A stretch of 64,000 bases of DNA, taken from positions 1 through 64,000 of IMG/VR virus record IMGVR_UViG_3300020202_000066. The stretch is one strand, 5' to 3'. Below the pieces are notes generated by a model. It had not been told where the DNA came from. It did no database searches and was given only the letters and a program-made list of their open reading frames with translations. Each line of letters starts with the position of its first letter. Position 1 is the stretch's first letter. Positions 43,466 to 64,000 of the stretch are shown here, one piece after another. The position numbers were made by a program, and so were the translations under genes. The DNA is from a virus.

Positions 43466-43468
43466 GAA

Positions 43469-43542: not shown

Positions 43543-43544
43543 GA

Positions 43545-43616: not shown

Positions 43617-43620
43617 GGAG

Positions 43621-43692: not shown

Positions 43693-43702
43693 ATGAAACT
43701 GA

Positions 43703-43775: not shown

Positions 43776-43779
43776 AGGA

Positions 43780-43851
43780 TGTGGCGAGAGGGAGTCGAAC
43801 CCTCGTGACCGGATTCACAGCCCGGCGCCTGTACCGCTCGGCCATCGCCAC
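43780..43851 (-). tRNA. tRNA-His(GTG)
   Basis: CCGGG-CTGTGAA-TCCGG; acceptor GTGGCGA/TCGCCAC; an extra G precedes the 5' end as required for His identity. Confidence 0.87.
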
Positions 43852-43873
43852 CACGATCAGCACTCGAACCTGG

Positions 43874-43947
43874 CGAACATGATGGGACTCGCACCCACTT
43901 TCTCCGGCGTGACGGGCCGGCGTCTCGACTGCTTCGACCTCATGTCC
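43874..43947 (-). tRNA. tRNA-Asp(GTC) with C33
   Basis: CCGGC-CCGTCAC-GCCGG: base 33 is C instead of the near-universal U. Acceptor GGACATG/CATGTTC; discriminator G fits Asp. Confidence 0.78.
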
Positions 43948-43951
43948 GTAG

Positions 43952-44025
43952 TTCGCCCGGAGGGACTCGAACCCCCGAAATGGCTGGGTGTAGGCCAGCT
44001 GCCTTTGCCGCTTGGCGACGGGCGA
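43952..44025 (-). tRNA. tRNA, anticodon TAC (Val) with C33 on a Gln-like body
   Basis: GCTGG-CCTACAC-CCAGC. Acceptor TCGCCCG/CGGGCGA. The D region (TCGCCAAGCGGCAAAGGCA) looks like tRNA-Gln. Isotype by anticodon only. Confidence 0.7.
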
Positions 44026-44030
44026 ATGGA

Positions 44031-44101
44031 TGGAGCTCCAGGGAATCGAACCCTGATCTGCCGGGTGCAAGCCGACCGTCCTCCCGTTGAACGAGAGCCC
44101 C
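44031..44101 (-). tRNA. tRNA-Ala(TGC)
   Basis: GTCGG-CTTGCAC-CCGGC; acceptor GGGGCTC/GAGCTCC. The G3-U70 Ala identity pair is present (G3 with T70). Confidence 0.88.
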
Positions 44102-44102
44102 A

Positions 44103-44140
44103 GAAAGAGAAACCCCCGGGCCAGGTGAGTGGTCCGGGGG
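44103..44140 (-). terminator. intrinsic terminator in tRNA cluster
   Basis: CCCCCGG stem (44113-44119 with 44134-44140) followed on the minus strand by a TTTCTCTTT tract. Directly after a 25-residue peptide gene and just before tRNA-Ala, so it limits transcription of the tRNAs downstream of it. Confidence 0.75.
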
Positions 44141-44165
44141 CCTTGAGCGCGCTCTTCAGTTCGCG

Positions 44166-44243
44166 CTACAGGGCGGACCACCCGCCGGCATCGACGCCGG
44201 CCGCGTGTGCGGTCGTCCCTGTGTGCACAGTGAAGAGCAGCAT
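44166..44243 (-). CDS. 25-residue peptide before terminator
   Basis: ATG 44243 behind GGAGACG. MLLFTVHTGTTAHAAGVDAG and five more residues. Same RBS-peptide-terminator layout as 45224-45292. Could be a leader peptide for attenuation of tRNA transcription. Confidence 0.4.
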   Translation of the reverse strand: MLLFTVHTGTTAHAAGVDAGGWSAL

Positions 44244-44282
44244 GGTCGTCTCCTATCACGGTCGTGGCTATCGCGGTGCAAG

Positions 44283-44354
44283 TCCTCGCGGAGAGATTCG
44301 AACTCCCAGCCGTCTGGTTCGAAGCCAGCCGCTCTTCCGCTGAGCTACGCGAGG
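44283..44354 (-). tRNA. tRNA-Arg(TCG)
   Basis: GCTGG-CTTCGAA-CCAGA; acceptor CCTCGCG/CGCGAGG. Confidence 0.87.
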
Positions 44355-44358
44355 ATGA

Positions 44359-44431
44359 TGTACCCGGCAAGGCTCGAACTTGCGGCCGCCCTGGTAGGAA
44401 CAGGGTGCTCCTCCGACTGAGCTACGGATGC
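44359..44431 (-). tRNA. tRNA-Arg(CCT)
   Basis: CCCTG-TTCCTAC-CAGGG; acceptor GCATCCG/CGGGTAC with one mismatch at pair 2-71. Confidence 0.8.
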
Positions 44432-44453
44432 AGGAGCCACACACGGGAACTGG

Positions 44454-44528
44454 TCTGCGCGGAGGGACTCGAACCCCCGGTCTCCTGCTCCCAAGGCAGG
44501 CGCTTTCGCCAGGCTAAGCTACGCGCAG
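44454..44528 (-). tRNA. tRNA-Pro(TGG)
   Basis: CCTGC-CTTGGGA-GCAGG; acceptor CTGCGCG/CGCGCAG. Confidence 0.88.
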
Positions 44529-44531
44529 AGA

Positions 44532-44602
44532 TGCACCCACGTGGAATCGAACCACGGGCTCGGTCTTCGGAGGACCGCATCCTTCCTCTGGACGATGGGT
44601 GC
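44532..44602 (-). tRNA. tRNA-Arg(CCG)
   Basis: CGGTC-CTCCGAA-GACCG; acceptor GCACCCA/TGGGTGC. Confidence 0.88.
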
Positions 44603-44609
44603 TGCTTGG

Positions 44610-44677
44610 TGCCTCTGTCGGGAGTCGAACCCGATGGGCAGCCTTCGCAGGGCTGCCTCCAATCCCCTGGCAGAAGC
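44610..44677 (-). tRNA. tRNA-Arg(GCG), shortened D arm
   Basis: CAGCC-CTGCGAA-GGCTG; acceptor GCTTCTG/CAGAGGC followed by encoded CCA. At 68 bases the D region is clearly short. GCG is an uncommon Arg anticodon. Confidence 0.7.
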
Positions 44678-44684
44678 ACGGAAG

Positions 44685-44756
44685 TAGGCCGTCGTGGTGC
44701 TGCCCCACGCTCCTCCGACTTATAAGGTCGGCGCTCTGCTGATGAGCTAACGGCCC
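44685..44756 (-). tRNA. tRNA-Ile(TAT) with non-consensus T loop
   Basis: CCGAC-CTTATAA-GTCGG; acceptor GGGCCGT/ACGGCCT. T stem CGTGG/CCACG is good but the loop is GGCAGCA, lacking T-psi-C. Confidence 0.72.
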
Positions 44757-44818
44757 AGATGGCCGGGAAGCGTGGAGCTATATACGCCGTCGGGGAGACG
44801 GCACCGGGGGTGGGCAGA

Positions 44819-44864
44819 ATGGTCGCCTCGGGGCGAAGCTGGTGAGTGCGATGTGGGCGACCAT
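44819..44864. repeat. inverted repeat in tRNA gap
   Basis: ATGGTCGCC and GGCGACCAT, 28 bases apart. It sits in the 149-base gap (44757-44905), which also holds a short GCCGTC/GACGGC hairpin and no supported gene. Confidence 0.5.
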
Positions 44865-44905
44865 GGTCCAGCGTAGCGCGCACGCGCGGTGGCTGGTGCA
44901 GATGA

Positions 44906-44992
44906 CGGAGAGCCAGAGACTCGAACTCTGACGCGGTGAACCGCCCGCCGGGTAGCAACCGGGGCCCGATACCAGTTACGGGATAGCTCTCC
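44906..44992 (-). tRNA. tRNA-Ser(GCT)
   Basis: Anticodon loop TTGCTAC with CCGG stem; long variable arm (CGGGCGG...CCGCG); acceptor GGAGAGC/GCTCTCC; discriminator G. Confidence 0.87.
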
Positions 44993-45000
44993 AGGAACAG

Positions 45001-45081
45001 AGGAGGGCGGAGGTGTCGATCCCCGAGCCCGAAGGCCCCACCGTTTTCAAGACGGCTTGCCGCGCCGGCGGCGCGCCCTCC
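45001..45081 (-). tRNA. tRNA-Ser(TGA)
   Basis: CCGT-CTTGAAA-ACGG anticodon arm; long GC-rich variable arm; acceptor GGAGGGC/GCCCTCC. T stem has a weak outer pair. Confidence 0.8.
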
Positions 45082-45095
45082 AGGAACAACACCAG

Positions 45096-45165
45096 AACGC
45101 TGGCCGGGAATCGAACCCGGGCCGGTACCTTTGCAGGGCACCTCCGCGCCACGCGAATCCAGCGC
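45096..45165 (-). tRNA. tRNA-Cys(GCA)
   Basis: GTGCC-CTGCAAA-GGTAC; acceptor GCGCTGG/CCAGCGT; discriminator U as required for Cys. Confidence 0.86.
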
Positions 45166-45205
45166 AAAGAGAAAGCCCCCGGCGGTCCTGTGACTGCCGG
45201 GGGCT
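45166..45205 (-). terminator. intrinsic terminator in tRNA cluster
   Basis: AGCCCCCGGC/GCCGGGGGCT ten-pair stem, then TTCTCTTT on the minus strand. Lies after the 22-residue peptide gene and before tRNA-Cys, matching the layout at 44103-44140. Confidence 0.78.
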
Positions 45206-45223
45206 CTCGATCCTGCGTCGTCG

Positions 45224-45292
45224 TCAGGGCGTCGAGACTCCCGGCCAGCCGGCGCCGCGGGAACTCGACGAACAGGTGACGATGCGGATCAT
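45224..45292 (-). CDS. 22-residue peptide before terminator
   Basis: ATG 45292 behind GATAGGAG. MIRIVTCSSSSRGAGWPGVS and two more. The sequence before its start (GATAGGAG...GACCATG) resembles that of the 25-residue peptide at 44243. Confidence 0.4.
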   Translation of the reverse strand: MIRIVTCSSSSRGAGWPGVSTP

Positions 45293-45368
45293 GGTCTGCT
45301 CCTATCCGCGTCGGGACGCGGTGGGTGCACGCTCGGGCGATCGAAGGAGGTTCACGGGGGGGAAGAGG

Positions 45369-45671
45369 CTAGACGCCGACGGAGACGACCTTTCCCAGGA
45401 TCGCGGTCCGCTTGACCCAACCGTTGATGCGGCCGATGTTGTTCCCGATGAGAGCTCGGTCTCCCTGCAGCTGCTTGACCAGATGCAAGAGGAATCCTCC
45501 ACGCCAGCGGACGAACACCGCGTCTCCGACCGCTACGGCCATGGGATCGACCGGCGCGATGGTCACGAGCTCGCCGCTCTCGATCCGGCCGCGCATCGAC
45601 CCCCCGAGCGGACGAACCTTCGCGACTCGACCAGCAGAGATCTCCCGCAGCGCATCCGATGCCCAGCCCAT
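45369..45671 (-). CDS. stand-alone S24/S26-type peptidase domain (100 aa)
   Basis: ATG 45671 behind GGAGGAG. GGSMRGRIESGELVTI puts a nucleophile Ser at 25, and FLLHLVKQLQGD gives Lys at 66, the Ser-Lys pair of LexA/UmuD/signal peptidase folds. No HTH and no membrane helix, and no clear Ala-Gly cleavage site, so it may process another protein or be a UmuD'-like remnant. Located between tRNA genes. Confidence 0.75.
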   Translation of the reverse strand: MGWASDALREISAGRVAKVRPLGGSMRGRIESGELVTIAPVDPMAVAVGDAVFVRWRGGFLLHLVKQLQGDRALIGNNIGRINGWVKRTAILGKVVSVGV

Positions 45672-45760
45672 CGCCTGACTCCTCCGGCGACCTTCGTGCG
45701 GCCGCCACCGATGCCGGGCGAGTAGGTCGCGCGCTGCGATTCGGGTGCGCGGATCTCGAG

Positions 45761-45846
45761 AGGACCGGAAGGGGATCGAACCCTTCGTGCGCCTCGCGGC
45801 GCGACGGCTTAAAAGGCCGCTGCCGACACCAGTCGGCCACCGGTCC
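45761..45846 (-). tRNA. tRNA, anticodon TTT (Lys) on a class II body
   Basis: GCGGC-CTTTTAA-GCCGT gives TTT, but there is a long variable arm (CGCGCCGCGAGGCGCACG), typical of Leu/Ser. Acceptor GGACCGG/CCGGTCC. True isotype uncertain. Confidence 0.65.
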
Positions 45847-45848
45847 GA

Positions 45849-45918
45849 TACCCCCGCCAGGAATTGCACCTGGGTCTCCACGTCATCAGCGTGGCATCCT
45901 GCTGTTGAACGACGGGGA
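45849..45918 (-). tRNA. tRNA-Ile(GAT)
   Basis: CCACG-CTGATGA-CGTGG; acceptor ATCCCCG/CGGGGGT; T loop TGCAATT. Confidence 0.83.
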
Positions 45919-45923
45919 TGCGG

Positions 45924-45996
45924 ATGAACCCGCCGGGATTCGCACCCGGATGCCCGGATTAAGAGTCCGGTCCGTTGCTGTTACGGTCACGGGTCC
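45924..45996 (-). tRNA. tRNA-Lys(CTT)
   Basis: CCGGA-CTCTTAA-TCCGG; acceptor GGACCCG/CGGGTTC. Confidence 0.87.
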
Positions 45997-46008
45997 AGAG
46001 GAGGGGAG

Positions 46009-46081
46009 CAGCTCCTGATCGTGTCGAGCGATCACCTTCCGGGTCAAAGCCGGACGTGCAGAGCCGCTACACCAAGCAGCC
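46009..46081 (-). tRNA. tRNA-Gln(TTG)
   Basis: TCCGG-CTTTGAC-CCGGA; acceptor GGCTGCT/AGGAGCT with one mismatch and one wobble; T loop CTCGACA. Diverged but foldable. Confidence 0.65.
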
Positions 46082-46090
46082 GGGGGAGAG

Positions 46091-46161
46091 CAGCCGCCCA
46101 GGGAATCGAACCCCGACCCTCTCGGTCAGAACGAGGTGTGCTGCCACTACACCCGGCGGCT
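46091..46161 (-). tRNA. tRNA-Gln(CTG)
   Basis: CTCG-TTCTGAC-CGAG anticodon arm; acceptor AGCCGCC/GGCGGCT; discriminator G. Confidence 0.83.
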
Positions 46162-46356
46162 TCGGAATTGATCCAGCTGGTTGACGGTGGGGCGGTGAAG
46201 CGAGAGCAGCGCCTCACTCTTACCCGCCGAGCGCCCTCGGCAGACCCCTCCGCCGACCAGCTACGCCTGGCGTTGCTGGATGGGTTTGGCCCGTCCGGGC
46301 CCGGGAATGCCGGCACCCGCGACGGGCCGACGCTTGAGCAGGAAGGAGCGGAGGAG
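46162..46356. other. gap in tRNA cluster
   Basis: About 195 bases with no supported gene or clear RNA. It contains a GC-rich palindromic stretch CCCGGGCCCGG near 46295. Confidence 0.35.
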
Positions 46357-46429
46357 TAGCCCGCCAGGGACTCGAACCCTGCTTTCCTGGCTGAGAACCA
46401 GGTGTCCTGGCCGGATAGACGAGCGGGCC
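46357..46429 (-). tRNA. tRNA-Glu(CTC)
   Basis: CCTGG-TTCTCAG-CCAGG; acceptor GGCCCGC/GCGGGCT. Confidence 0.86.
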
Positions 46430-46435
46430 ATGAGA

Positions 46436-46507
46436 TAGCCCGCCGGAGACTCGAACTCCGCTTCCCCGTTTGAAGGACGGGGGACTTCACCCATAGTCGA
46501 GCGGGCC
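46436..46507 (-). tRNA. tRNA-Glu(TTC) with C33
   Basis: CCCGT-CCTTCAA-ACGGG: anticodon TTC, base 33 is C. Acceptor shared with the neighbouring Glu(CTC), from which it may have been copied. Confidence 0.78.
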
Positions 46508-50219: not shown

Positions 50220-51167
50220 TCACCCGGACCGGAGCCCCGGCAGCCGGCACCGGGGGCAGACCTCGTACAAGCGGGCGTCTTTGCACACTGCGCAGGGCAG
50301 CTTGAGCGTGTCGCACTCCTGCCGGTACCGCAGCGCACAGGGATCGCAGAGCTCGAATTCGTCGGGCACCGAGGTCCTGAGGTCCATCGATGCGCAGGCG
50401 GCACAGAGGTGACTCGTGCATGCCTCCACCGCGAGCGCTTCCTCCGCACGGTTCGGCCGCGGCCGGGGGACCTCCCACCCCTTGCCGCACTTCTCGCAGC
50501 CGACCTGCCTGCGCTGGAAGCCGATGGAGGGTCCGTCGACGAGCTTGTGGCGGATCACGGCCGCCGCGGCGGTGGGTGGATCGTTCGGCTGCGCGGACTC
50601 CTCGACAGGGGGCAACGGATCGGTGGAGCTCCGAGGAATTTTGGGGGAGTCCTCCGCCGCGGGCGGACAGCGAGGGGGGCGACCGGCCTGGTCGAGGGGC
50701 TCGTACACGACCACCCGGACGTCGGGGAGCCCGGCGAAGGCGCGCTCGATCAGGGGGCGGACGTCGGACCAGGCGAGCCCGCCCAAGCCGCAGCCCAGTG
50801 CGGGGATGGCGATCGATGGGATGCTCCGCTCCTTCACCTCACGGACCAGCGCGGCCAGCCCGGTCTCGATGTAAGCCAGAGTGCTCTTGCCGGTCCAGCG
50901 CCGCTTCGTCGGGAAGTTGATGATGAGGGAGCGGGGCCCGAGTCGACCCAGGTCGAACACGAACAGGCGGCCCGGGTAAACGTCGCCGCGGTCGCACGCT
51001 GCGACGTAAGCCTTGAAGTTCTCTGGATACGCGGCTTTGAACTTGGCGGCGAGGCCCGCTCCCATCACGCCGAGGCAGTTCACGGGGTTGACCAAGGCCA
51101 CGACGTCGGCCCAGAGAATGTCGCCTGTGTTGAACTCGATGTGGGACGGGCTGGGCTGGATGTTCAA
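50220..51167 (-). CDS. DarG-like macrodomain protein with C-terminal zinc fingers
   Basis: 315 residues from TTG 51167. Residues 8-160 are a macrodomain: NTGDILWADVVALVNPVNCLG, GVMGAGLAAKF, NFPTKRRWTGKS and ALGCGLGGLAW match the DarG subfamily, which removes ADP-ribose from DNA. Residues 215-315 add CEKCGKGW, CAACAS, CDPCA, CAVC, CPRC. A phage macrodomain could reverse DarT ADP-ribosylation of phage DNA or degrade ADP-ribose signals. No DarT gene is next to it, so an anti-defence role is more likely than a toxin-antitoxin pair. Confidence 0.82.
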   Translation of the reverse strand: MNIQPSPSHIEFNTGDILWADVVALVNPVNCLGVMGAGLAAKFKAAYPENFKAYVAACDRGDVYPGRLFVFDLGRLGPRSLIINFPTKRRWTGKSTLAYIETGLAALVREVKERSIPSIAIPALGCGLGGLAWSDVRPLIERAFAGLPDVRVVVYEPLDQAGRPPRCPPAAEDSPKIPRSSTDPLPPVEESAQPNDPPTAAAAVIRHKLVDGPSIGFQRRQVGCEKCGKGWEVPRPRPNRAEEALAVEACTSHLCAACASMDLRTSVPDEFELCDPCALRYRQECDTLKLPCAVCKDARLYEVCPRCRLPGLRSG

Positions 51168-51236: not shown

Positions 51237-51803
51237 TCAGTCGACCTCGATCGCGGCGCGCAGCGTCACCCGCGCCCGACGCAGGGCCGACCGGTGCGCC
51301 CCCGAGTGAACTCCCGTCGCCGCGGTGATCTCCCGTTCCTGGTGGCGCTGGATCGGCCCGAGAATGACGGCGGTCCGCTGCTTCTTCGGCAGCATGTTGA
51401 TCTTCGCCACCAACCGGGAGAGCACGTCCCGTACCTCGACGGCGATCTCCGGTCCCCGCTCCGGCCGGTCCGGCGGCTGCACACCCACAGCATCCAGGCT
51501 CTCGCACGTGGTCTGCGCAAGGCGCCGGGCCTGCCGCCGGTACCGCATCGACCGGATCATCGCGGTGTTCAGCGCCACGCGGTAGAGCCAGGATGAGAAG
51601 AGGCTCCGGTGCTGGAACGAGGGGAGAGAGCGGTGGACCTGCAGCCACACGTCCTGCACGGCGTCCTCGAGCTCGAACTCAACCACGTACCGTGTGCAGG
51701 CTCGCCGGACGAGCGCGACGTGACGGCGGTACAGGGACGCGAAGGCGTCGTGGTCTCCGGCTGCGGCGAGAGCGACGGCATCGTGGTCCGGGTCGGGCGT
51801 CAC
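51237..51803 (-). CDS. ECF-type sigma factor
   Basis: 188 residues from GTG 51803. Sigma region 2: FASLYRRHVALVRRACTRYV, LEDAVQDVWLQVHR, LFSSWLYRVALNTA. Region 4: LPKKQRTAVILGPIQ, EREITAATGVHSGAHRSALR. No anti-sigma gene is adjacent. A phage-encoded sigma factor would turn host RNA polymerase to chosen promoters, perhaps late genes. The divergent intergenic region at 51804-52117 is the obvious place for its own promoter. Confidence 0.85.
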   Translation of the reverse strand: MTPDPDHDAVALAAAGDHDAFASLYRRHVALVRRACTRYVVEFELEDAVQDVWLQVHRSLPSFQHRSLFSSWLYRVALNTAMIRSMRYRRQARRLAQTTCESLDAVGVQPPDRPERGPEIAVEVRDVLSRLVAKINMLPKKQRTAVILGPIQRHQEREITAATGVHSGAHRSALRRARVTLRAAIEVD

Positions 51804-52117: not shown

Positions 52118-53071
52118 ATGGAGACCCGACCTGTCCCTTCCGAGCTCGTGGTCACCCACGAGATCCCCGCCGACCGGAACCCGGCGCTGGTCTATCTGGG
52201 CAGCCTTGGGGCCGGCAGTCTCCACTCCCAGACCGGCGCGCTCGAGCAGATGGCCCGCCTCCTCAGCGGCGGACTCGTCGGCCTGCGGGAACTCAACTGG
52301 TCCGCCGTCCGATACCCGCACGTCGCGCGCCTCAGGACATTGCTGGTCGACCAAGGCAAGGCGCCCGCGACGGTGAACCGATTCCTGGCAGCCATCAAGG
52401 GAACTGCCCGGGAATCCTGGCGACTCGGGTACATCGATGCCGAAGAGCTGCGGCGTGTCGAAGACGTGAAGTCCGTGCGAGGCTCGACCCTCCCCGCAGG
52501 CCGGGCACTTTCCATCGCCGAGGTTCAGGCGCTCGGCAATGCGTGCGACCGGACCACCCCCGGCGGGGCGCGCGATGCTGCGATGATCGCAGTCCTGTTC
52601 GGCGGGGGCCTGCGCCGGCAGGAGCTGGTCTCGCTTGACCTCAGCGACTACACGCCCGTGACCGGCGAGCTCCGCATCCGCGCTGGCAAGGGGCACAAGG
52701 AGCGGCTCGTGTACGCGACCAACGGCAGCGCGACCCTCCTGGCCGCCTGGCTTGCGCATCGCGGCGGCGAGCCGGGGCCGCTGTTCGTCCCCGTGAACAA
52801 GGGCGGTCGGGTGACGATCGCTCGCTTGAACCCACAAGCGGTGTACATGATGCTGCGAGCTCGTGGCGCCGAGGCGGGCCTCGCCCCCTTCAGCCCGCAC
52901 GACCTGCGCCGGACCTTCATCGGCGAGCTGCTGGACCGTGGGGCCGACCTCGCTGCAGTGCAGCAGCTCGCCGGTCACGCGAACATCACCACGACCGCCC
53001 GGTACGACCGCCGCGGAGAGCGCGCCAAGCGCAAGGCCGCCGAGCTCCTGCACATCCCGTTCGGCCAGTAG
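52118..53071 (+). CDS. second tyrosine recombinase (XerC/D-like)
   Basis: 317 residues from ATG 52118 (GAGAGGAG upstream). Catalytic Arg in GGGLRRQELVSL, SPHDLRRTFIGEL box, AGHANITTTARYDRR with His and Tyr nucleophile. Shorter than the integrase at 34.3 kb and more Xer-like. Possible roles are resolving genome multimers, inverting a segment, or a second integration system; no repeat target was identified next to it. Confidence 0.87.
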   Translation: METRPVPSELVVTHEIPADRNPALVYLGSLGAGSLHSQTGALEQMARLLSGGLVGLRELNWSAVRYPHVARLRTLLVDQGKAPATVNRFLAAIKGTARESWRLGYIDAEELRRVEDVKSVRGSTLPAGRALSIAEVQALGNACDRTTPGGARDAAMIAVLFGGGLRRQELVSLDLSDYTPVTGELRIRAGKGHKERLVYATNGSATLLAAWLAHRGGEPGPLFVPVNKGGRVTIARLNPQAVYMMLRARGAEAGLAPFSPHDLRRTFIGELLDRGADLAAVQQLAGHANITTTARYDRRGERAKRKAAELLHIPFGQ

Positions 53072-54989: not shown

Positions 54990-55411
54990 TGTCGGAGGTC
55001 GTCGACCTCGCCCGGGTGCGCTCTGTGACGCGGCTCCGCTACGAGCTCGCGATCGCCGCGGGGCGTGTGCTCGGAGCTGTGCTCGCGCTCCGGTGGGACC
55101 GCCTCGACCTGTACGAGGCATGCGAGGCGGGCATCGTCCGGGTGAAGGTCACCAGCGGCGACGCGATGGTCACGCTGCAGACCTTTCGGCCGACGCGGAT
55201 GCACATCCTCGCGGAGAGCACCGACATCGGAGGACCTACCGGGAACGAGGTGGACAGCGTGCCAGCCGACAGCCTCGAGGTGGGCATCGGTCTGGTGATG
55301 CTTACCCAGCTGGCCGTGCTCCGGAAGTCCGCGATGGAGCCACGGAGGAGTGCGCTGGGGGATGAGCTCAGGCGGATCATCCGGCGCGGGAAGGTGGCTG
55401 TCGGTGGGTAA
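54989..55411 (+). CDS. hypothetical protein (140 aa)
   Basis: TGATG overlap. Begins with helices (LRYELAIAAGRVLGAVLAL), then beta-like VRVKVTSGDAMVTLQTF. No family recognised. Confidence 0.7.
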   Translation: MSEVVDLARVRSVTRLRYELAIAAGRVLGAVLALRWDRLDLYEACEAGIVRVKVTSGDAMVTLQTFRPTRMHILAESTDIGGPTGNEVDSVPADSLEVGIGLVMLTQLAVLRKSAMEPRRSALGDELRRIIRRGKVAVGG

Positions 55412-55805
55412 GAGTCCCTACTGGCTCAGGAGCGGGTCACTGCGTCACGGGTCGGCTCGCCTTGATGCTGAGGGGTTGCCGCCTGAACCGATCGGTGCCG
55501 GCGCCGACGAGTGGCCGAAGTGTCGCAAGTGCTCCCGGCGGATGCCGGAGGGACGCTTCGGTTTCTGCTCCAACCGCTGCTCGATGCTCTACCACCAGTG
55601 TGGCTTCAACGCCTCCCACAAGCGGCCGATGGTGCGGGCCTTCTTCGAGAAGGTGGCGAGCCTGATCGAGTCGGATATGCCGCCGGCGGTCCGAGCTGCT
55701 CTCGAAGAGTTCCTCGCGGAGCACAAGGGCGCTGCATGGTCGGGGTTCGAGAGCTGGTTCACTGAAGAGCTGTGCCGCCGCATCACCGGCCGTAGGAGGG
55801 TCTGA
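55404..55805 (+). CDS. zinc-finger hypothetical protein (133 aa)
   Basis: GTG 55404. WPKCRKCSRRMPEGRFGFCS and NRCSMLYHQC suggest a FCS-type zinc finger; the second half is helical (AFFEKVASLIESDMPPAVRA). Confidence 0.7.
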   Translation: MGKSPYWLRSGSLRHGSARLDAEGLPPEPIGAGADEWPKCRKCSRRMPEGRFGFCSNRCSMLYHQCGFNASHKRPMVRAFFEKVASLIESDMPPAVRAALEEFLAEHKGAAWSGFESWFTEELCRRITGRRRV

Positions 55806-55808
55806 GCT

Positions 55809-56216
55809 GTGGAGATCGTCAATGCCCGGCGCGGGCAGAACCCGTTCGCCGGCTACGCTGGCCAGTGGATCCTCCTCTACCAGGATCCGGGGTTCCGGCT
55901 CCCGTTCTGCTTCTGGGACGAGACGCGGCAGCGCATCCCCACCTTCAAGTCGAAGGACGACGGCATTCGTGCGATGCAGTACCACGCCGTCTCTCGCGGC
56001 TTCTGGGCTATCTACGGCCGGTACGAACCCAAGTTGGTTCAGTACGAGAGCATGAAGGAGTTCGCGGACTACTACCACCAGATGCACTACACGCTGGAGA
56101 TCCCCGTGGTCTGGTTCGGCTCCGTCGCCGAGATGGACGAGGTCGCCGAGTGCCGCCGGCTGATCACGCCCGGTGTGGTCCCGACGATGACAGGACTCAT
56201 GGCGGTGGGCGAGTGA
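55809..56216 (+). CDS. hypothetical protein (135 aa)
   Basis: GTG 55809 with GGAGG about 10 bases before. Rich in aromatic residues (WILLYQDPGFRLPFCFWDE, YYHQMHYTLEIPVVWFG). Likely a folded soluble domain; no family recognised. Confidence 0.7.
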   Translation: MEIVNARRGQNPFAGYAGQWILLYQDPGFRLPFCFWDETRQRIPTFKSKDDGIRAMQYHAVSRGFWAIYGRYEPKLVQYESMKEFADYYHQMHYTLEIPVVWFGSVAEMDEVAECRRLITPGVVPTMTGLMAVGE

Positions 56217-56344
56217 CCCGCCACGAGGGTGATCCGGAGCTTGTGCGTGACGCCCGAGCCCTAGCCCTGTCCTTCGTCGCACTCATCCTGACCATCCTGA
56301 CCGTGGCGCTGTGGTGCGCAGCGTTGCCTATCCCGGCGGTCTGA
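56213..56344 (+). CDS. 43-residue membrane protein
   Basis: GTG 56213, GTGA overlap. MTRHEGDPELVRDARALAL then a membrane helix (FVALILTILTVALWCAALP). Confidence 0.65.
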   Translation: MTRHEGDPELVRDARALALSFVALILTILTVALWCAALPIPAV

Positions 56345-56345
56345 C

Positions 56346-56972
56346 GTGGGACGCCCGCGCACCCGCAAGCCCAAGACCTGCACGGCCTGCGGCCAGGTGT
56401 TCGAGGACAGGACGAAGGCCGGCGACCGCCGGCGGTGCCGCCTGCCCGGGTGCGGCTGGAAGTGCACCTGCTACTACTGCAAGGCGCCCTTCGTGAGCCA
56501 CGGTCCTCGTCCGCCGACGATCTGTCGCGCGGAGGAGTGCCAGCTGAAGTACAAGCGCAACCGGCAGCGCGCCTACTACCGGCGGCCGGAGAACGTCGAG
56601 AAGGTCAAGGGCTGGTGGGCGAACGCCCGCGCCAAGGCGCTGGCGGCCGCGAAGGCGAAGCAGGCAGAGCTCGCGAAGAAGGGGATCAAGAAGTGCCTGA
56701 CTGCGATCCGTGACCCGAGCTACCCCTACGTCGACAAGCGCAAGAAGCGGCGCCGGGACCGGGTCTGCGAGAACTACAAGATGGGCTGGTGCTACGCCGT
56801 GAAGCCCGAAGCCCGGTGCCCGCTCCGCCAGGCGGACCGGCCGGGATGTTCGATGTTCAAGCCGACGTCTGAGTGGCTCGCGAAACAGAAGCCCGCGCCG
56901 GACGTACCGCCGAAGAAGGCTAGAACGCCAGACGAGCCTGGTACTGGATCAGCTCCGGCATCGGATACGTGA
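56346..56972 (+). CDS. Cys-rich basic protein (208 aa)
   Basis: GTG 56346. Zinc sites CTACGQVF, CRLPGCGWKCTCYYC; long basic helix (ARAKALAAAKAKQAELAKKG); then CENYKMGWCYAVKPEARC. Probably nucleic-acid binding. Its last 53 bases overlap the converging baseplate gene. Confidence 0.72.
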   Translation: MGRPRTRKPKTCTACGQVFEDRTKAGDRRRCRLPGCGWKCTCYYCKAPFVSHGPRPPTICRAEECQLKYKRNRQRAYYRRPENVEKVKGWWANARAKALAAAKAKQAELAKKGIKKCLTAIRDPSYPYVDKRKKRRRDRVCENYKMGWCYAVKPEARCPLRQADRPGCSMFKPTSEWLAKQKPAPDVPPKKARTPDEPGTGSAPASDT

Positions 56973-57303
56973 TCCCGCTGCCGTAGTCCAAGACGATCTC
57001 TGCCTCGTACAGGCCGGGGTCGACCAGATCGGTGGCGGCCCAGTCGTAGTGGGCGAGCCCGCCGACCGCGTTGTCCACGTCCATCTCGGTGTCGTCGGCG
57101 TTGATCACCGTTGTGTCGCCGGCGCGGCGGAGCTTGAAATGCGGCGTGATGCTGGTGAGGTTCAGCGCTGTCCCGTCCGGGTTCGTGAACGCGAACTCCT
57201 GTCGCGGGCGCCTGGCTCCGGTGACGATCGGGATGACCACACTGCGGAAGTCTGCGCCCACGGTCAGGACCTTCGTGGTGAGCCGGATCTCGATCGCGCT
57301 CAT
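56920..57303 (-). CDS. BppU-like baseplate upper protein domain (127 aa)
   Basis: ATG 57303 behind GGAGGCC. EFAFTNPDGTALNLTSITPH, then GGLAHYDWAATDLVDPGLYEA fits the Ig-like N-terminal domain of BppU (DUF2479), used to hold receptor-binding proteins on the baseplate. First of the leftward fibre genes that runs to the window end. Confidence 0.72.
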   Translation of the reverse strand: MSAIEIRLTTKVLTVGADFRSVVIPIVTGARRPRQEFAFTNPDGTALNLTSITPHFKLRRAGDTTVINADDTEMDVDNAVGGLAHYDWAATDLVDPGLYEAEIVLDYGSGITYPMPELIQYQARLAF

Positions 57304-58112
57304 TGAGGCCTCCGGTCCAGCCGGTCAAGGATCCGCTGGACGTCCCGTCCCATCCGCTCGACCTTCGCCTTGATCTCGGGCACACCTTGGACGACGGCAA
57401 CGCGCTCGATGATCTGATCGCGGCACGTCGAGCCGAGCCACATTAGCGATGCGCCCAGCACGGTCACGAGGCTCCAGAGCAGGAAGTCCCGACCTGCCCA
57501 CCATGCCTTCGCGAGCGCCGGAAGGGTCATCCCTGCGATCTGCTGCTTCGCCGTGCTCACTGACTTGGCCAGCTGGAGAACCTCTTGATCTCGGACTGCT
57601 GCGCCGTTGTTGACCTGCCTCACGGTGCTGGAGATCAGCTCACTCAGGCTCTCGATGCCGCCGGAGACGTCGGCGAATCCCTTGCGAGTTTCCTCGACAA
57701 ACGCGTCGAGCCCCTTCTGGATGCTGTCGATCCGGTAGGCGGTGTCCGCGTCCATCATCGCCTTGCGCACGATGCCGACGAAGCTGTAGCTGTCCCCAAC
57801 CAGCTGAGGCTTGTAGAACACCGGCAGATGACGCGGCGCGCGGAAGTGTTGGTCCGCAGTGAGGAAGATCACACGGATGGACGGGTGGTGCTCGATGATC
57901 CAGGCCGCGAGCGCCTCCCCATTCATCCCTGGGAGGGTTACGTCGGCGACCACGACGCTGATGGAGTTGCGCTTCAGCCGCTCAATGGCCGCCGCGGCCG
58001 TCGGGACACCCTCAGGATGCAGACCGGCCTCAGTGAGGATGTGTTGCATCAGGTCGAGCACGTCCTGATCGTCGTCGACTACCAACACTGTGCGCGGGCC
58101 GGTGCTGGACAT
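57300..58112 (-). CDS. response-regulator receiver protein with membrane anchor
   Basis: 270 residues from ATG 58112 (GGAGGG upstream). Residues 8-125 are a CheY-like receiver domain with every phosphorylation residue: Asp13-15 (VVDDDQD), phospho-acceptor Asp57 (VVADVTLPGMNG), Thr85 (IFLTADQ), Lys101 (FYKPQ). Instead of a DNA-binding output it has a coiled coil (about 135-200), a membrane helix (about 215-235, LLWSLVTVLGASLMWL) and a second coiled coil. ATGA-coupled to a baseplate gene. No partner histidine kinase is seen. Role unknown; host two-component signals may feed into it. Confidence 0.88.
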   Translation of the reverse strand: MSSTGPRTVLVVDDDQDVLDLMQHILTEAGLHPEGVPTAAAAIERLKRNSISVVVADVTLPGMNGEALAAWIIEHHPSIRVIFLTADQHFRAPRHLPVFYKPQLVGDSYSFVGIVRKAMMDADTAYRIDSIQKGLDAFVEETRKGFADVSGGIESLSELISSTVRQVNNGAAVRDQEVLQLAKSVSTAKQQIAGMTLPALAKAWWAGRDFLLWSLVTVLGASLMWLGSTCRDQIIERVAVVQGVPEIKAKVERMGRDVQRILDRLDRRPQ

Positions 58113-58137
58113 GGTCTAGGCCCTCCGGGGATGCGCG

Positions 58138-58569
58138 CTACTGGTTCATACCGCGGCCCGTGAACACAGCCGCCGCGGCGTCGTTGTTCGTGATCCGGTA
58201 CTTGCCCCACCCGGATGGAAGGAGCTGGAGGTCTGACCCGCCCTGTGCGGTGTTGATGGTGATGGTGTTGACGGCAGTGGTGCCAGCGGCGCTGGTCGCG
58301 GCCCACTTCGTGAAAGGGCCCGCCTGCGAGTTTGACTGCAGCACCTCGATCGTTACGTTGACGCTCCCCACGGTCGTGACGACCCAGTCCACGCCGTGGA
58401 TCGTCGAGTCGCCGATGTAGAACGGCTGCGTGGTCGTGGCTGACGTGCCGGCCGCGACATACTGGCTAGTGAAGAGCCGGTCGATAGACGGGGCGTAGAC
58501 CTTCGAGTGAGCGCTGCTGACGGCCGGCAGCGCGCAGAGCAGGAGTGCAATCAGCAGCCACCGCGTCAT
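58138..58569 (-). CDS. exported hypothetical protein (143 aa)
   Basis: ATG 58569 behind GGGAGGG begins with a signal peptide (MTRWLLIALLLCALPAVSSA). ATG 58620, also with a ribosome site, is an alternative. The mature part is beta-rich (QPFYIGDSTIHGVDWVVTTV). In a fibre operon, so perhaps a small adhesin or fibre accessory; export of a phage structural protein would be unusual. Confidence 0.65.
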   Translation of the reverse strand: MTRWLLIALLLCALPAVSSAHSKVYAPSIDRLFTSQYVAAGTSATTTQPFYIGDSTIHGVDWVVTTVGSVNVTIEVLQSNSQAGPFTKWAATSAAGTTAVNTITINTAQGGSDLQLLPSGWGKYRITNNDAAAAVFTGRGMNQ

Positions 58570-58634
58570 CGCACCCTCCCTTTCGATGGTGTAGCACTGG
58601 GCGAACTTCTTGGACTTCATCGCTCAACCTCTCT

Positions 58635-59846
58635 TCAGTGCAACGGCCGGATGACGATCCGCTCGCGTACCAGAGTGTTGCCTGCCGCGGCATCGCCCCA
58701 CTGCACCGCTACGCCGAGGTTCTTGGCGGTGGTGGTGTCCGCGGCGGTGCTTCCGCGCTTGGATCGGCCCGCGTCGCCTGTCCCATTGGTGATCGAGCCT
58801 GAGAGGCTGCCCGCTACCGTGCCGCTCGCACCTACCGCTCGAAACTCAACGAGCCCCTTCACCGACCACGCCGCATCGGTCAAACTTGCGTCCACATCGA
58901 AGGCGGGGGTTCGCGCAACGACGGTGCTCCCGTACATCAGCGCAAATGTGATGCTCGTTGGCGATGCGCTCGTAGAGAGCTTTCCGGATGCGAGGATCTC
59001 CCACGCTTGGCCCAACACTGCCGACGATGCTGCCAGCGAGAGCGTCGGGGTCAGCATCGTCTCCGTGGTAGTGTTGGCGATCGGGCTCGTGTCGTCGGTG
59101 CTGACGTACTTGTCGGCCCGGAGGGCAAGGATCCCGCTCCATGCGGAGTAGCTCCCAGTGCCGGTGAGTGCGCTGATCGTCGGCGCATCGGCGTCGACCT
59201 CGATCGTGATGATCAAGTCTGTCGGCGATCCTGGTGTCGTGCGTCGCACCAACAAGATTGCGTCGTGAGAGGCGTTCGACTTAAGAACGAGGGCGAAGTC
59301 ACCTGCGCCATTGTAGTCGTTGAAGCCAGCGTCAGAGATCGGCGGGATGGTGCGGTACTCGTCTGCCGTGAGATCCATCCGCACTGAGAAGACGTAGGAC
59401 TTCGCAGCCGCCAGTGCGCTTCCGCCGGCGGGGGGCGCGATAGACACTCGAAGCGTCTGTCCACCGAAATTGTGGACGAAGTTGGCTACGAACGCATAGT
59501 CGTCGGTGTTGCCTCCGAGCGTTCTGCTGTACTTCACGATGCGCTTCGTGCCCACGATGGTGACCACACCGTCGGAATTTGTGATGTCAGCATAGGCGCC
59601 AGCCGGCCCGGTTGATCCGGTTGATCCGGTTGCACCCGTCGCGCCCGTGGCTCCGGCAGAGCCAGCGGGGCCTGCTGAACCTGCCGCGCCGGTGCTTCCG
59701 GTTGCGCCTGTGGATCCCGTCGCGCCCGTGGCTCCCGTAGCACCGGTAGCTCCGGTCGCGCCGATACCACCGCCGGCCCCAGCTCCCGCCCAGCCGAATG
59801 CGGAGGAGTGAAGGACGAGGAGCAGAACTGCCGTGCGGATTCTCAT
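58635..59846 (-). CDS. exported collagen-like fibre protein
   Basis: 403 residues from ATG 59846 (GGAGGCGCT upstream). Signal-like N-terminus ([20 protein letters not shown]), then a run of GAT/GST/GPA triplets (collagen-like triple helix), then a beta-rich globular C-part of about 300 residues. Phage fibres often use Gly-X-Y stalks with a receptor-binding head, but a signal peptide is odd for a virion protein. Confidence 0.75.
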
Positions 59847-59873
59847 AGCGCCTCCATCCCCCCGGGGTTCCAA

Positions 59874-60272
59874 CTACTGGTCCACTCGGTTTTCGGTGAT
59901 GTCAATCTGAACCGTCGTGTCCGCGCCGTTGCCCGCATCGTCCGTGACTCGCACTCGGATCAATGGGAGCCACGTGTCCGGGATGTTGACTGCGTGCGGA
60001 CTAGAGTCCGAGATCGTGATGAGAGCTCCTTGGACTTCCAGCTCCGGGGTCAGTGCTGTGTACTTTGTATCCGTGTCGGCGGTCGCACCCTCGACGAAGA
60101 CCTTCAGGGCGGGGCTCGATCCGGCAGCCTTGATCCAGAGGGACATCTTCCCGATGCCCCGCTTGTGCCGGAAAGGAGTGCTTTTGATGTTCTGGCTGGC
60201 GCCCGGCACAGCAGTGCCGGCGGGCAGCAGCGTCTTGACGTTGTACTCAAGGTCGAGCAGGTCAACGGCCAT
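59874..60272 (-). CDS. fibre-region beta-rich protein (132 aa)
   Basis: ATG 60272 behind GGAGG. LLDLEYNVKTLLPAGTAVPG then Ig-like ITISDSSPHAVNIPDTWLPL. Likely a small structural or tail-fibre domain. Confidence 0.68.
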   Translation of the reverse strand: MAVDLLDLEYNVKTLLPAGTAVPGASQNIKSTPFRHKRGIGKMSLWIKAAGSSPALKVFVEGATADTDTKYTALTPELEVQGALITISDSSPHAVNIPDTWLPLIRVRVTDDAGNGADTTVQIDITENRVDQ

Positions 60273-60285
60273 GGCTCCTCCGTGA

Positions 60286-61092
60286 CTAGCGGTTCTGGCC
60301 CGCGTCCCGCACCGTGCCGGCGTATGGAATCGTGACCGCGAGCATCGTGGTGTCCCGCACGACGGTCTCCGCGTAGCCTCCGACGATGCCGTGACCCCAG
60401 CGGGCGAAGCTGCAGTCCTTGAACAACGCGGAGGTCTCGCCAGCGCCGCCTGCATTGACCCACGCGCCGTACGTCCCGGATCTGGTGACAGCCAGCGAGA
60501 ACGAGCAGTCGGAGACCACGGTGCCGCCGGCACGATCCAGATGCAGGCCGACAACCTCGCCGCCCGCCGGTACCGTCATGCCCACCACGGAGCAGTGCTC
60601 GACCCGCATTCCGGGGCCAATCGCCTTGAACCCCATCGGGCGCGTCGAGCTGGCGAGTGTGGATCCGCCGGCGTCACTCACGGTGCAGTCACGGATGCGC
60701 CCGGCGCGACCATCGATCCAGAGACCGAGGTACGTTGGGGTGACCGAGAGGTTCGCCATCTCGTGACCTGATCCGCCGAGATACCCGCAGCAGTAGAAGC
60801 CGCGAATCGAGCCATTGCGGACGCGCACGTTGGTGCGGCCGGAACACCACACGCCGAAAGCGATCGTGCCGGTACCGGCGTTGCCGACGAGCGCGTGGCC
60901 GCCGAGATCCAGCGTCACGTCGTTGGCGGCAATGACAACCGCATGTCCGGTGGCGTGCGGATAGGAGAGTGTGGAGGCAAGGCGGTACTCGCCCGGAGCC
61001 GAGATGCTGACGGGGAGGCTCGCGATCTGGATGGGCGCGGCGATGGCGCCTGCCGAGAGCAGCGCGATCAGCGCCAGGTGGAGCAGCCGCAT
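60286..61092 (-). CDS. right-handed beta-helix protein with signal peptide
   Basis: 268 residues. Signal-like start (MRLLHLALIALLSAGAIAAP), then pectin-lyase-type repeats: VVIAANDVTLDLGGHALVGN, NVRVRNGSIRGF, GRIRDCTVSDAGG, MRVEHCSVVGM, TVVSDCSFSLA, SALFKDCSFAR. Parallel beta-helices in phages are tail spikes or depolymerases; this one may instead be exported. GGAGGCGGC precedes the ATG. Confidence 0.8.
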   Translation of the reverse strand: MRLLHLALIALLSAGAIAAPIQIASLPVSISAPGEYRLASTLSYPHATGHAVVIAANDVTLDLGGHALVGNAGTGTIAFGVWCSGRTNVRVRNGSIRGFYCCGYLGGSGHEMANLSVTPTYLGLWIDGRAGRIRDCTVSDAGGSTLASSTRPMGFKAIGPGMRVEHCSVVGMTVPAGGEVVGLHLDRAGGTVVSDCSFSLAVTRSGTYGAWVNAGGAGETSALFKDCSFARWGHGIVGGYAETVVRDTTMLAVTIPYAGTVRDAGQNR

Positions 61093-61104
61093 AGCGCCGC
61101 CTCC

Positions 61105-61227
61105 TCAGTAGTCGATCACCACCGTGGTGAGGATGACTTCCTGAGTGACCTCGGTGACGATGGACTCAACTGTAGCCGCGGACACGACGACTTCCTGAGT
61201 CACCGTCGTCTCGATGATCGCTGACAT
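61105..61227 (-). CDS. 40-residue protein with internal repeat
   Basis: ATG 61227 to TGA 61105. Two related halves: TTVTQEVVVSAATVES and TEVTQEVILTTVVIDY. Beta-prone. RBS weak. Lies between the membrane protein and beta-helix genes. Confidence 0.5.
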   Translation of the reverse strand: MSAIIETTVTQEVVVSAATVESIVTEVTQEVILTTVVIDY

Positions 61228-61236
61228 TCAGATTCA

Positions 61237-61713
61237 CTACGCAGCTGGTGAGGGTGGCTTGGGTACCCCGATGCCGGGGCTCTGCGGTTGGGCGGCTTTG
61301 AGCCGAGCGTGGATCGCCAGCGCTAGGCTATCCAGCATCTCCTGGCTGAAGGCCGGTACCGCTGGAGTCGACTGCGTTGCAGGCAGCGAGGCCTTCTCCA
61401 TCTCCCGTCGATGCGTCCATTCTGCGAGAGCCTTGACGTCGAAGCTGGGAGGGCGAGCCTTGCCGAGGGCTCGCCAGAGGTCGTCGGCGTACTTGAGTCC
61501 CTTCTCCAGCCAGTCGTGGTCATCCTCCGGATTCTGGCGTCGGTACTTCGCGACCATGGCGTAGGCGCCAGCAAGGATGGTCTGGACGTCCTCCTGGAGC
61601 TCCTTGTTCTGCAGGTACTTGCCGAGACCCCAGTAGCCGAGGATCGCCAGGACGACGAACGCGACGGCGTCCACATGCGCATGTAGAAACGCAAGTACCT
61701 GATCGAGAGACAC
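61237..61713 (-). CDS. membrane protein with long cytoplasmic tail (158 aa)
   Basis: GTG 61713 is placed because GGAGG lies eight bases before; GTG 61722 touches that site. N-terminal helix (AVAFVVLAILGYWGLGKYLQ), then a helical domain (AYAMVAKYRRQNPEDD ... WLEKGLKYADDLWRAL) and a Pro-rich end. Size and layout resemble LLH-type holins, without proof. Confidence 0.65.
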   Translation of the reverse strand: MSLDQVLAFLHAHVDAVAFVVLAILGYWGLGKYLQNKELQEDVQTILAGAYAMVAKYRRQNPEDDHDWLEKGLKYADDLWRALGKARPPSFDVKALAEWTHRREMEKASLPATQSTPAVPAFSQEMLDSLALAIHARLKAAQPQSPGIGVPKPPSPAA

Positions 61714-61814
61714 TTGGATCACCTCCGGTCGAGGACAAGCGTTCGGGGGGCGAACTCTATCTCATCGCGCCGCTGAGGACGAGGCGCTGTCGATGTAGTC
61801 ATCGTAGCCGAGAC

Positions 61815-64000
61815 TCAGTTCAGTAGATGAACCTCGAACTGCTCGATGATGAGGGTTGAGAAGATGTTGGTGAGTACTCCGACGCTCCCACCGATCGTTG
61901 TGGAGCCAGAAGTATTGCCATTCGGGACGGAGCTACGTCCGGAGAAGTTGGGCGATGAAGTAGACCCGCCGAATTCTCCTCTTATCCATCCTGTCAGGTC
62001 TGCAGTTCCGGCACCCGATGAGCGGACCCATACGTCGAACTGGAGGTACCACGGTTTATCGGTTTGATTGACCGGAACTGATACCGAGGAAGAAGACACG
62101 GTCATCGTACTGAACGTCGCATTGAAGGACGCCGTGGGCGCCGAGCCGGTCGATGTGTACCTCCCGTACCATGTCGCTCTAAAGTGACGGCCGGTGAGAT
62201 TAAAGGCTGCGCTTGGTGCGGCGAAAGTATTCGGGCTCGCGAATACATTCGTTCCGAGCGAATTGCCAAGGTTGCCGCTGTCCGAGTTGTTCTGGTACAG
62301 CAACGTGGGCACCACACCAGCGAACGACGTCCCTGTGCCCGGAATGACGGCACACCATGCCTGCTTGGCAGTGTCGTACCAGAGGTCACCATTCGCGGCG
62401 GTGGCGAAGGGACCAGTCCCGCCTGTCGAGTGGAGGCAGGTGTCCGCCGCGAGGTTCACGGCTCGAGCGCATTCGAGGTTAATGTCCCCGCCAGATGCGA
62501 TCAGGTTGATAGTCTTGATCGCCCCCGAGGAGCTCGCGCCTCCAGTGAGGAGGTCGATTCGTCCACCGGTTGCTCCGGTCCCGCCAGTTCCGGCGATCAG
62601 CTTGACCCGTCCCGAAACGCCCGTGCCTACTGCATTTCCGCCAGAGATCGTATTGTCGCCGCCATTGGCGTTGTTGCCTTGGCCGGAACCGCCAGAGACT
62701 GAAGCCGGTCCACCGTTGCCTGCGCTTGACCCGCCGTTGCCTGCGGCCGCAGAGAATGCCCCCCCGGCGCCAGTGACGCCGGGGGCGCCGCCGACCGCGT
62801 TGAGGGCGCCTCCCGTCGATCCGCTGTTGCTGGTGGCGCCGCCCTTGATGTTCGAGGAGTAGCCAGTCCCGCCGGTGTTCGTGGGGGGCTCGAGCGTGAA
62901 GTTGGCGGCAGACATCGTGGGCGAAGTGGCGAGCAGTGGGGCGGGAAGGGTGCCTGCAAGCGCGGCGCTCAGTGATCCCGAGTAGGATCCCGTGGCTCCG
63001 GTGGCGCCTGTCGAGCCTGTGGCGCCCGTGGCCCCGAGGTCGCCGGTGCGTGAGAATACGAGGGCGATCGGGTCTCCGTTCGTGAACGGCGAACTCGCCG
63101 AGGCGCTCACATACACGAGCGTGATCTTGCGGTAACCGGTCCCGCTGGCAATGGATCCGGAGATTGTGAACAGGGCCCACTTCGATGGGTCGGTTCGATG
63201 CACAGCTCGGAGGTGGCCACGCACGGCGGATGTCGAGTCGGCAAGGGTGTCGACGATCCCGCTGATGGTCGTGCTGAAGGCGTCCGCGTTGTTGGCGTAG
63301 CTCTTGGTAACCGACGACATCGTGCCGTGGTCGAATCGTGCCTTGCCGGCCCCCGGATCGGCGTCGGTTGTGCCGTTGTCGAACGCGAACGCGAGCGTGA
63401 CAGCGCCGCCAACGGCGCCAGTACTTCCGGTCGCCCCGGTCGCGCCCGTACTTCCGGTCGCGCCCCCAGCACCTGCGGAGCCTGCGGCTCCTGTGGATCC
63501 TGTGGATCCTGTTGCGCCAGTGGCGCCTGTTGATCCGGTCGCTCCAGTCGAGCCAAGGTCACCGGTGCGGCTGAAGGCGAGTGCAGTCAGGTCGCCGGGA
63601 CCAAAGCTGGTGTCGCCACCTACCCAAGCGAGGGGGACCTTGACGTAGGTCGTCGCGTCGGTCACCGAGCCTGTGATGCGGTACTCTGCCCAGGAATCAT
63701 AGTCCTCAAGATCGATCAGCCGGAGGGTCCCTTTCACAGCGCTCGAGCTGTCGTCGAGTGCGAGGAGGACGGACTCTAGATTTGTTCCGACGAAAGCGTT
63801 CTTGTTGATGTAGAGGAAAGTCGCGCTGTCCACGGCCGCATTGTTGAAACGAAATAGTCCCGCGCCGGGATTGCTATCCGCGGTGGAGCCGCTGTCGAAC
63901 ACGTACCGTCCGAGCTCTCCTCCGAAGGCGCCGGTCGCGCCCGCTGGGCCGACGAAGCCTGGACCGATAGGGCCGGTGGCTCCAGTGGATCCAGTTGCGC
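61815..64000 (-). CDS. collagen-like tail fibre, N-terminus beyond window
   Basis: At least 728 residues, open at the right edge, where the frame still reads Gly-X-Y triplets ([15 protein letters not shown]). Three triplet stalks alternate with beta-rich blocks of about 80 residues (LAFAFDNGTTDADPG type, seen twice). A Gly/Ala/Asn-rich middle and a beta-rich C-terminal domain (RHFRATWYGRYTSTGSAPTA) follow. The block repetition looks like tandem duplication. A receptor-binding fibre is the best reading. Confidence 0.82.
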   Translation of the reverse strand, partial: ATGSTGATGPIGPGFVGPAGATGAFGGELGRYVFDSGSTADSNPGAGLFRFNNAAVDSATFLYINKNAFVGTNLESVLLALDDSSSAVKGTLRLIDLEDYDSWAEYRITGSVTDATTYVKVPLAWVGGDTSFGPGDLTALAFSRTGDLGSTGATGSTGATGATGSTGSTGAAGSAGAGGATGSTGATGATGSTGAVGGAVTLAFAFDNGTTDADPGAGKARFDHGTMSSVTKSYANNADAFSTTISGIVDTLADSTSAVRGHLRAVHRTDPSKWALFTISGSIASGTGYRKITLVYVSASASSPFTNGDPIALVFSRTGDLGATGATGSTGATGATGSYSGSLSAALAGTLPAPLLATSPTMSAANFTLEPPTNTGGTGYSSNIKGGATSNSGSTGGALNAVGGAPGVTGAGGAFSAAAGNGGSSAGNGGPASVSGGSGQGNNANGGDNTISGGNAVGTGVSGRVKLIAGTGGTGATGGRIDLLTGGASSSGAIKTINLIASGGDINLECARAVNLAADTCLHSTGGTGPFATAANGDLWYDTAKQAWCAVIPGTGTSFAGVVPTLLYQNNSDSGNLGNSLGTNVFASPNTFAAPSAAFNLTGRHFRATWYGRYTSTGSAPTASFNATFSTMTVSSSSVSVPVNQTDKPWYLQFDVWVRSSGAGTADLTGWIRGEFGGSTSSPNFSGRSSVPNGNTSGSTTIGGSVGVLTNIFSTLIIEQFEVHLLN

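Follow-up and report, generated by a model that had tools for sequence, protein, structure and literature searches.

Genomic setting of the receiver gene

The window, meaning the whole 64,000-nucleotide stretch of viral DNA that was analysed, corresponds to positions 1-64000 of a virus record that is 89,959 bp long, and its minus strand carries a gene for a protein that joins a receiver domain to a coiled coil, one membrane helix and a short C-terminal coil (Table 1). The last 126 bases of the record are identical to bases 21-146 and the first 20 bases differ; the terminal identity most likely marks a complete circular genome of ~89.8 kb, and the 20 bases at the start are most likely an assembly artefact. 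A tape-measure protein and a large terminase are encoded in addition to the portal protein, a match to capsid E is weak, and an S24/CI-type repressor together with two integrases indicates that the phage is probably temperate. The record is thus probably that of a temperate tailed phage. A search for the histidine kinase HATPase domain, which was positive in 14 of 14 control genomes, returned nothing from the phage genome, and because that genome is apparently complete, the phosphodonor must be the host's. Other genes include an ECF-type sigma factor (51237-51803, minus strand; Sigma70 region 2, E=2.8e-11, and region 4, E=7e-6), a homologue of the DNA polymerase III beta clamp that is complete, all three domains being present (2853-3953, minus strand), and, in a temperate phage of 90 kb, an array of 29 tRNA genes (42449-46507, minus strand).

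Table 1. Coordinates of the receiver gene, its parts, its neighbours and other loci discussed in the text (window positions unless stated)
Feature	Position	Strand	Evidence
Receiver gene, CDS of 270 aa; receiver domain followed by coiled coil, single membrane helix and short C-terminal coil	57300..58112	-	
Shine-Dalgarno GGAGGG, ATG of receiver gene 8 nt on	58121..58126	-	sequence
Receiver domain, residues 8-108; D13/D14, D57 (codon 57942-57944), T85, K101-P102; helix alpha4 absent	57789..58091	-	Pfam, alignment, AF2
Continuous helix, residues 111-168 (alpha5 running on as coiled coil)	57609..57782	-	AF2; 103-degree periodicity
Predicted transmembrane helix, residues 209-228	57429..57488	-	hydropathy 1.68 over 19 residues
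C-terminal amphipathic/coiled segment past membrane helix, residues 232-266	57315..57419	-	AF2 helix 245-266; 106-degree periodicity
ATGA stop/start overlap of receiver gene with next gene	57300..57303	-	sequence
Downstream gene in overlap; product of 127 aa, all-beta, with weak likeness to BppU_N (baseplate upper protein)	56920..57303	-	Pfam E=0.0022, below cut-off
Upstream gene, same operon, 160 aa, predicted Sec signal peptide	58138..58620	-	
Collagen-repeat fibre-like gene, predicted signal peptide	58635..59846	-	Pfam Collagen E=6e-7; PHROG tail fibre
Right-handed beta-helix gene, predicted signal peptide	60286..61092	-	Pfam E=6e-8
Collagen-repeat fibre-like gene, signal peptide	61815..64000 (start at 64448 of record, beyond window)	-	Pfam, PHROG
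Tyrosine integrases, two different	34324-35577; 52118-53071	+; +	
CHAP endolysin	39128-39622		
Portal protein fused to Mu gpF-like domain, single ORF	81360-83756 of record	-	
Hydrophobic-repeat receiver proteins on viral contigs	L101:5989-6675; L097:5989-6690; L107:5989-6690; L124:5989-6681		

The receiver gene is the penultimate member of a tightly packed minus-strand run behind the tail genes, with an upstream gap of 25 bp. The first-pass annotation gave its coordinates, strand, length (57300-58112, minus strand, 270 residues) and residue numbering correctly throughout, and described it as translationally coupled through an ATGA to a baseplate-like gene. The sequence confirms the overlap with the gene at 56920-57303, and a ribosome site of the GGAGG type precedes each of the two genes, that of the downstream gene being GGAGG at 57309-57313. 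The label given to the neighbour stands in part: a BppU_N match exists, but it is sub-threshold. The structure model of the downstream product is all-beta with low confidence, and its fold matches were set aside, the model being too weak for them to be meaningful. A search of 55000-64000 with the sigma-70 consensus only found no promoter-like site, which makes late co-transcription likely; judged by operon position, the receiver gene is likely transcribed late along with the tail and fibre genes.

Predicted Sec signal peptides, assigned by a simple rule and not by SignalP, are present in four of the seven upstream genes at 58138-64448. Such signals on four fibre-like or collagen/beta-helix genes (58138-58620, 58635-59846, 60286-61092 and 61815-64448) are unusual for virion proteins, and the products of these genes may be exported to the cell envelope.

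Codon use of the receiver gene falls at the 51st percentile within the phage, that is, it is typical, and its GC3 is 0.82 against a phage mean of 0.81. Typical codon use argues that the gene is not a fresh capture, and together with GC3 and the Shine-Dalgarno site it argues against a reading frame arisen by chance. These data also bear on the possibility that the gene is a host-derived accessory gene, or moron, serving the lysogen and not the lytic cycle. Morons are often located in tail regions, lambda lom being an example, and the phage is probably temperate; against this, the receiver gene has no promoter-like site of its own in the sigma-70 type search, lies just 25 bp from the gene upstream and shows no foreign signature in codon use, so that we regard a moron as unlikely.

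The receiver domain

PF00072 (Response_reg) is the sole Pfam family matched by the protein, at E=3.9e-16 over residues 9-88 and with a score of 59.6 bits, above the curated cut-off of 30.2, and a sequence search of the PDB returned 36 distinct sequences at E<=1e-3, nearly all of them receivers. The receiver residues had been described as intact, and alignment bears this out for the acid pair D13/D14, D57, T85 and K101. In the 12-receiver alignment (A9) of the window protein and 11 others, built on trimmed receiver domains, V11, D13, D14, L26, D57, P61, G65, K101 and P102 are invariant and T85 occupies the conserved Thr/Ser position; in the structure alignment of receivers the sequences ended ahead of the K101 region. 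The spacing from T85 to K101 is 16 residues as opposed to ~22 in CheY-like receivers, which implies that there is no helix alpha4, and K101-P102 is followed by an insertion of about six residues. The short spacing and the insertion together explain why the Pfam match is limited to residues 9-88. A similarly short stretch is found in three receivers from viral contigs (L092, L096 and L103) and is thus a known kind of receiver variation.

Structure prediction, which had been proposed as a check, agrees with these results. From an input alignment of 19 sequences covering the receiver part only, AlphaFold2 (AF2) modelled residues 8-84 as a confident receiver fold lacking helix alpha4, with a mean pLDDT of 89-97 per 10-residue block over residues 11-90; strands 1-4 and helices 1-3 are confident, alpha4 is unmodelled, the beta5 region is weak and alpha5 is prolonged. 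A Foldseek search of the PDB with this model returned receivers. On the strength of its sequence match, the receiver domain can be taken as genuine with statistical certainty.

The protein could be a virion or assembly factor that provides a membrane tether for fibre or baseplate assembly, with the receiver acting as a protein-binding scaffold and not as a phosphorylation switch. Its position among fibre-like genes and its overlap with the weakly BppU_N-like gene would suit such a role, but a scaffold has no need of the full site, T85 and K101-P102 included, and we consider it improbable.

The phage also encodes a Macro-domain protein (50220-51167, minus strand; E=1.4e-20) that is possibly a counter-defence against ADP-ribose signalling. 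Cyclic-phosphate-processing receiver (cRec) domains are linked to NAD/ADP-ribose processing and have been described in jumbo phages (PMC7824862), and the presence of the Macro domain would be in keeping with a receiver of that kind engaged in an NAD/ADP-ribose conflict. However, Pfam assigns the protein to the conventional Response_reg family and to no other, and the receiver operon does not include the Macro gene, from which 6 kb separate it; a cRec is thus scarcely credible.

A predicted coiled-coil and membrane-helix output

The first-pass annotation had proposed that the output is a coiled coil plus a membrane helix in place of DNA binding, and periodicity, the hydrophobic segment and the lack of an output-domain match all agree with it. 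AF2 places a 58-residue helix at 111-168, followed by helices at 175-193, 197-225, 228-240 and 245-266. Hydrophobic periodicity over residues 111-168 peaks at 103 degrees, the heptad angle of coiled coils (P=0.0025 versus shuffles), and over residues 232-266 at 106 degrees (P=0.007 versus shuffles). A single hydrophobic segment is of membrane-helix length, starting at about residue 210, and the AF2 helix in this region (197-225) is of low confidence. The flanking charges are ambiguous for topology, with 1-2 K/R before the membrane helix and 4 after it; the receiver is assumed to be cytoplasmic because phosphodonors are cytoplasmic. Pfam and PHROG searches found neither a DNA-binding output domain of the OmpR, NarL or NtrC class nor an enzymatic one, and the C-terminal 153 residues matched no Pfam family and gave one weak PHROG match only (E=0.015).

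Since the receiver is followed in line by the alpha5 helix, the coil, the membrane helix and the second coil, phosphorylation of the receiver by host kinases might alter the coil dimer and, through the membrane helix and the C-terminal coil, act on a periplasmic or envelope target such as the exported fibre-like proteins, the cell wall or lysis. That neighbouring gene products look exported favours such an inside-out switch; the low confidence of the membrane helix in AF2 and a topology that is only predicted weigh against it, as does the position of the CHAP endolysin gene, which is far off and leaves a direct link to lysis without genetic support. We hold the switch to be possible but doubtful. 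A lysis role next to the endolysin was rejected, given the distance of the CHAP gene.

Search for relatives

Scans of viral contigs with peptides of the protein itself, from the whole sequence and from the C-terminal half, recovered no full-length relative, such scans needing short exact peptides, and tblastn with the C-terminal half reached no viral contig. The tblastn searches were likewise negative for plasmids and for cultured phages, the latter a collection that includes contaminated records. About 690 sampled bacterial genomes, from phyla that may not include the host, also yielded no full-length relative; for the C-terminal half the genomes searched were 284 of the phylum to which a Polyangiaceae locus belongs and 399 of that of an alphaproteobacterial locus. 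A Myxococcota match to the C-terminal half (L129, E=8.5e-6) is regarded as a chance one, as the stretch has no matching gene, and 28 loci from one genome scan were receiver-only matches, most of them drawn in by the shared peptide DDDQDVLD. Receiver matches in the phage collection were largely bacterial contamination under phage labels and were left uncounted. Portal-based relatives of the phage comprise 55 contigs, all distant, and the window protein and the phage's hub-region protein were both absent from the 30 searched, many of which are fragments. In the literature, of which coverage was partial, no described phage protein of receiver-coil-membrane architecture was found, a weak negative.

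The first-pass annotation had held that homologues restricted to bacterial chromosomes would count against its proposal; this was not observed, there being no full-length relative in any of the searched sets, and the window protein appears to be a singleton so far. The lack of homologues could also mean that the ORF arose by chance, comes from contaminating host DNA or is a captured gene in decay. This is very unlikely in view of the receiver match at E=4e-16, the intact site, the Shine-Dalgarno sequence, the operon overlap and the phage-like codons within a phage genome.

Receivers in other phages

The statement that receiver proteins are rare in phages needs qualification, because they are uncommon but known: examples include PHROGs 731 and 5982, several phage entries of BFVD, the reported carriage of narL by phages (PMC9636769) and four IMG/VR contigs. 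These contigs emerged from a scan of viral contigs for receivers that yielded 33 loci, four of which (L097, L101, L107 and L124) encode a protein of 228-233 residues with a complete receiver followed by paired hydrophobic repeats. D11, D12, D13, D55, T83 and K105 are invariant in this family, in which identity to L097 is 61-94% for the other three members, and no further contig emerged from a dedicated scan. The 123-kb L101 contig carries a T4-type major capsid gene (gp23, E=1e-77) and a portal gene (gp20, E=7e-109), markers which identify it as phage and which established phage status for this contig alone among the four. Outside the receiver, no similarity was found between the window protein and this family, the C-terminal parts being unlike. 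A second, unrelated family on four viral contigs thus indicates that membrane-anchored receivers recur on viral contigs.

Proposed mode of action

The evidence supports a real phage whose late structural operon encodes a membrane-anchored receiver and whose genome has no partner kinase. The reading that we favour, plausible though short of probable, is that a membrane-tethered orphan receiver takes phosphate from the host's kinases and acts, late in infection, as a competitor of the host's own regulators. The protein would act as a phage response regulator held in the inner membrane of the host, if the predicted topology is right, and its place in the operon suggests that it is made late, alongside tail and fibre genes. 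The N-terminal receiver would face the cytoplasm, where D57, lying in an intact site, could be phosphorylated by host histidine kinases or by acetyl phosphate. Because alpha5 is continuous with the long coiled coil, the protein would probably dimerise and be parked beside membrane-bound kinases. Competition of this kind would draw phosphate or kinase contacts off host regulators and damp a membrane-sensed response; that the response is one to envelope stress, caused by the fibre-like proteins which the operon would export, is a guess from the surrounding genes. Separate precedents exist, by analogy, for each step, namely a phosphate sink (PMC5964349), kinase inhibition (PMC9430884), phage targeting of kinases (PMC10714779) and a membrane-anchored output (PMC5847659). 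Points against competition are that a pure phosphate sink would not need a C-terminal coil past the membrane, that the flanking charges are ambiguous and that no homologue was found which could attest selection on the active site. A membrane competitor dependent on host kinases nevertheless best accommodates the intact phospho-site, the lack of an output enzyme and of a phage kinase, the membrane tether and the dimer-type coil; signalling outward through the membrane to an envelope target ranks next, and the other explanations considered above are less likely.

A more far-reaching proposal is that a temperate phage reads host-kinase phosphorylation with a receiver of its own and uses the coil and the membrane helix to pass the signal on to proteins of the envelope or the fibres, thereby tuning late infection to the state of the host, and that membrane-anchored receivers have arisen at least twice in phages; taken as a whole, this is speculative and rather unlikely.

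What appears new here is that a late operon of a phage encodes a receiver whose predicted output, a coil plus a membrane helix, matches no known family, an arrangement which suggests that a phage taps host kinase signalling at the cell membrane. It is already known that phage binding proteins block host two-component signalling; a membrane-held phage receiver with an intact phospho-acceptor would, if true, amount to a direct tap into host kinase output. The window protein thus offers a concrete case in which to ask whether, during assembly, viruses read the phospho-signalling of bacteria or drain it. That an unrelated second family exists on viral contigs, including a T4-like one, suggests that the strategy is recurrent.

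Comparison with known systems

The window protein shares with PF00072 regulators of the CheY, NtrC and PhoB types the fold, the acid pair, the phospho-acceptor Asp, the Thr and the Lys-Pro, but departs from them in having no known output domain, in the missing alpha4 and the insertion after K101-P102, and in possessing a membrane helix and being encoded by a kinase-less phage. Proteins of the L097/L101/L107/L124 family likewise place membrane segments after a receiver and occur on viral contigs; unlike the window protein, they have two paired hydrophobic repeats as output instead of a coil and one helix, normal alpha4 spacing, and a location that is not beside fibre genes. A receiver coded by a phage is also found in PHROG 731, PHROG 5982 and the BFVD entries from Myoviridae sp. 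ctrnx29 and Alteromonas phage vB_AmeM_PT11-V22, but the PHROG matches are confined to the receiver, the BFVD matches are of receiver-level fold, and the coil and membrane part is not shared.

Among cellular systems, archaeal response regulators with the membrane-anchored output domain MetOD3 (PMC5847659) also join a receiver to a membrane-anchored part, a likeness of described architecture, whereas they come from methanogens. LovR, which acts in a phosphate sink (PMC5964349), and the receiver protein Osp, which directly inhibits its kinase (PMC9430884), resemble the window protein as receivers without a DNA-binding output and in the proposed mode of action, although both are single-domain cellular proteins with known partner kinases. 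Finally, the PIT4 protein of phage LSL4 binds several host kinases, reportedly at their kinase domains (PMC10714779); although it is the product of an early gene and has not been reported as a receiver protein, it parallels the role proposed here in being made by a phage and acting on the two-component systems of the host.
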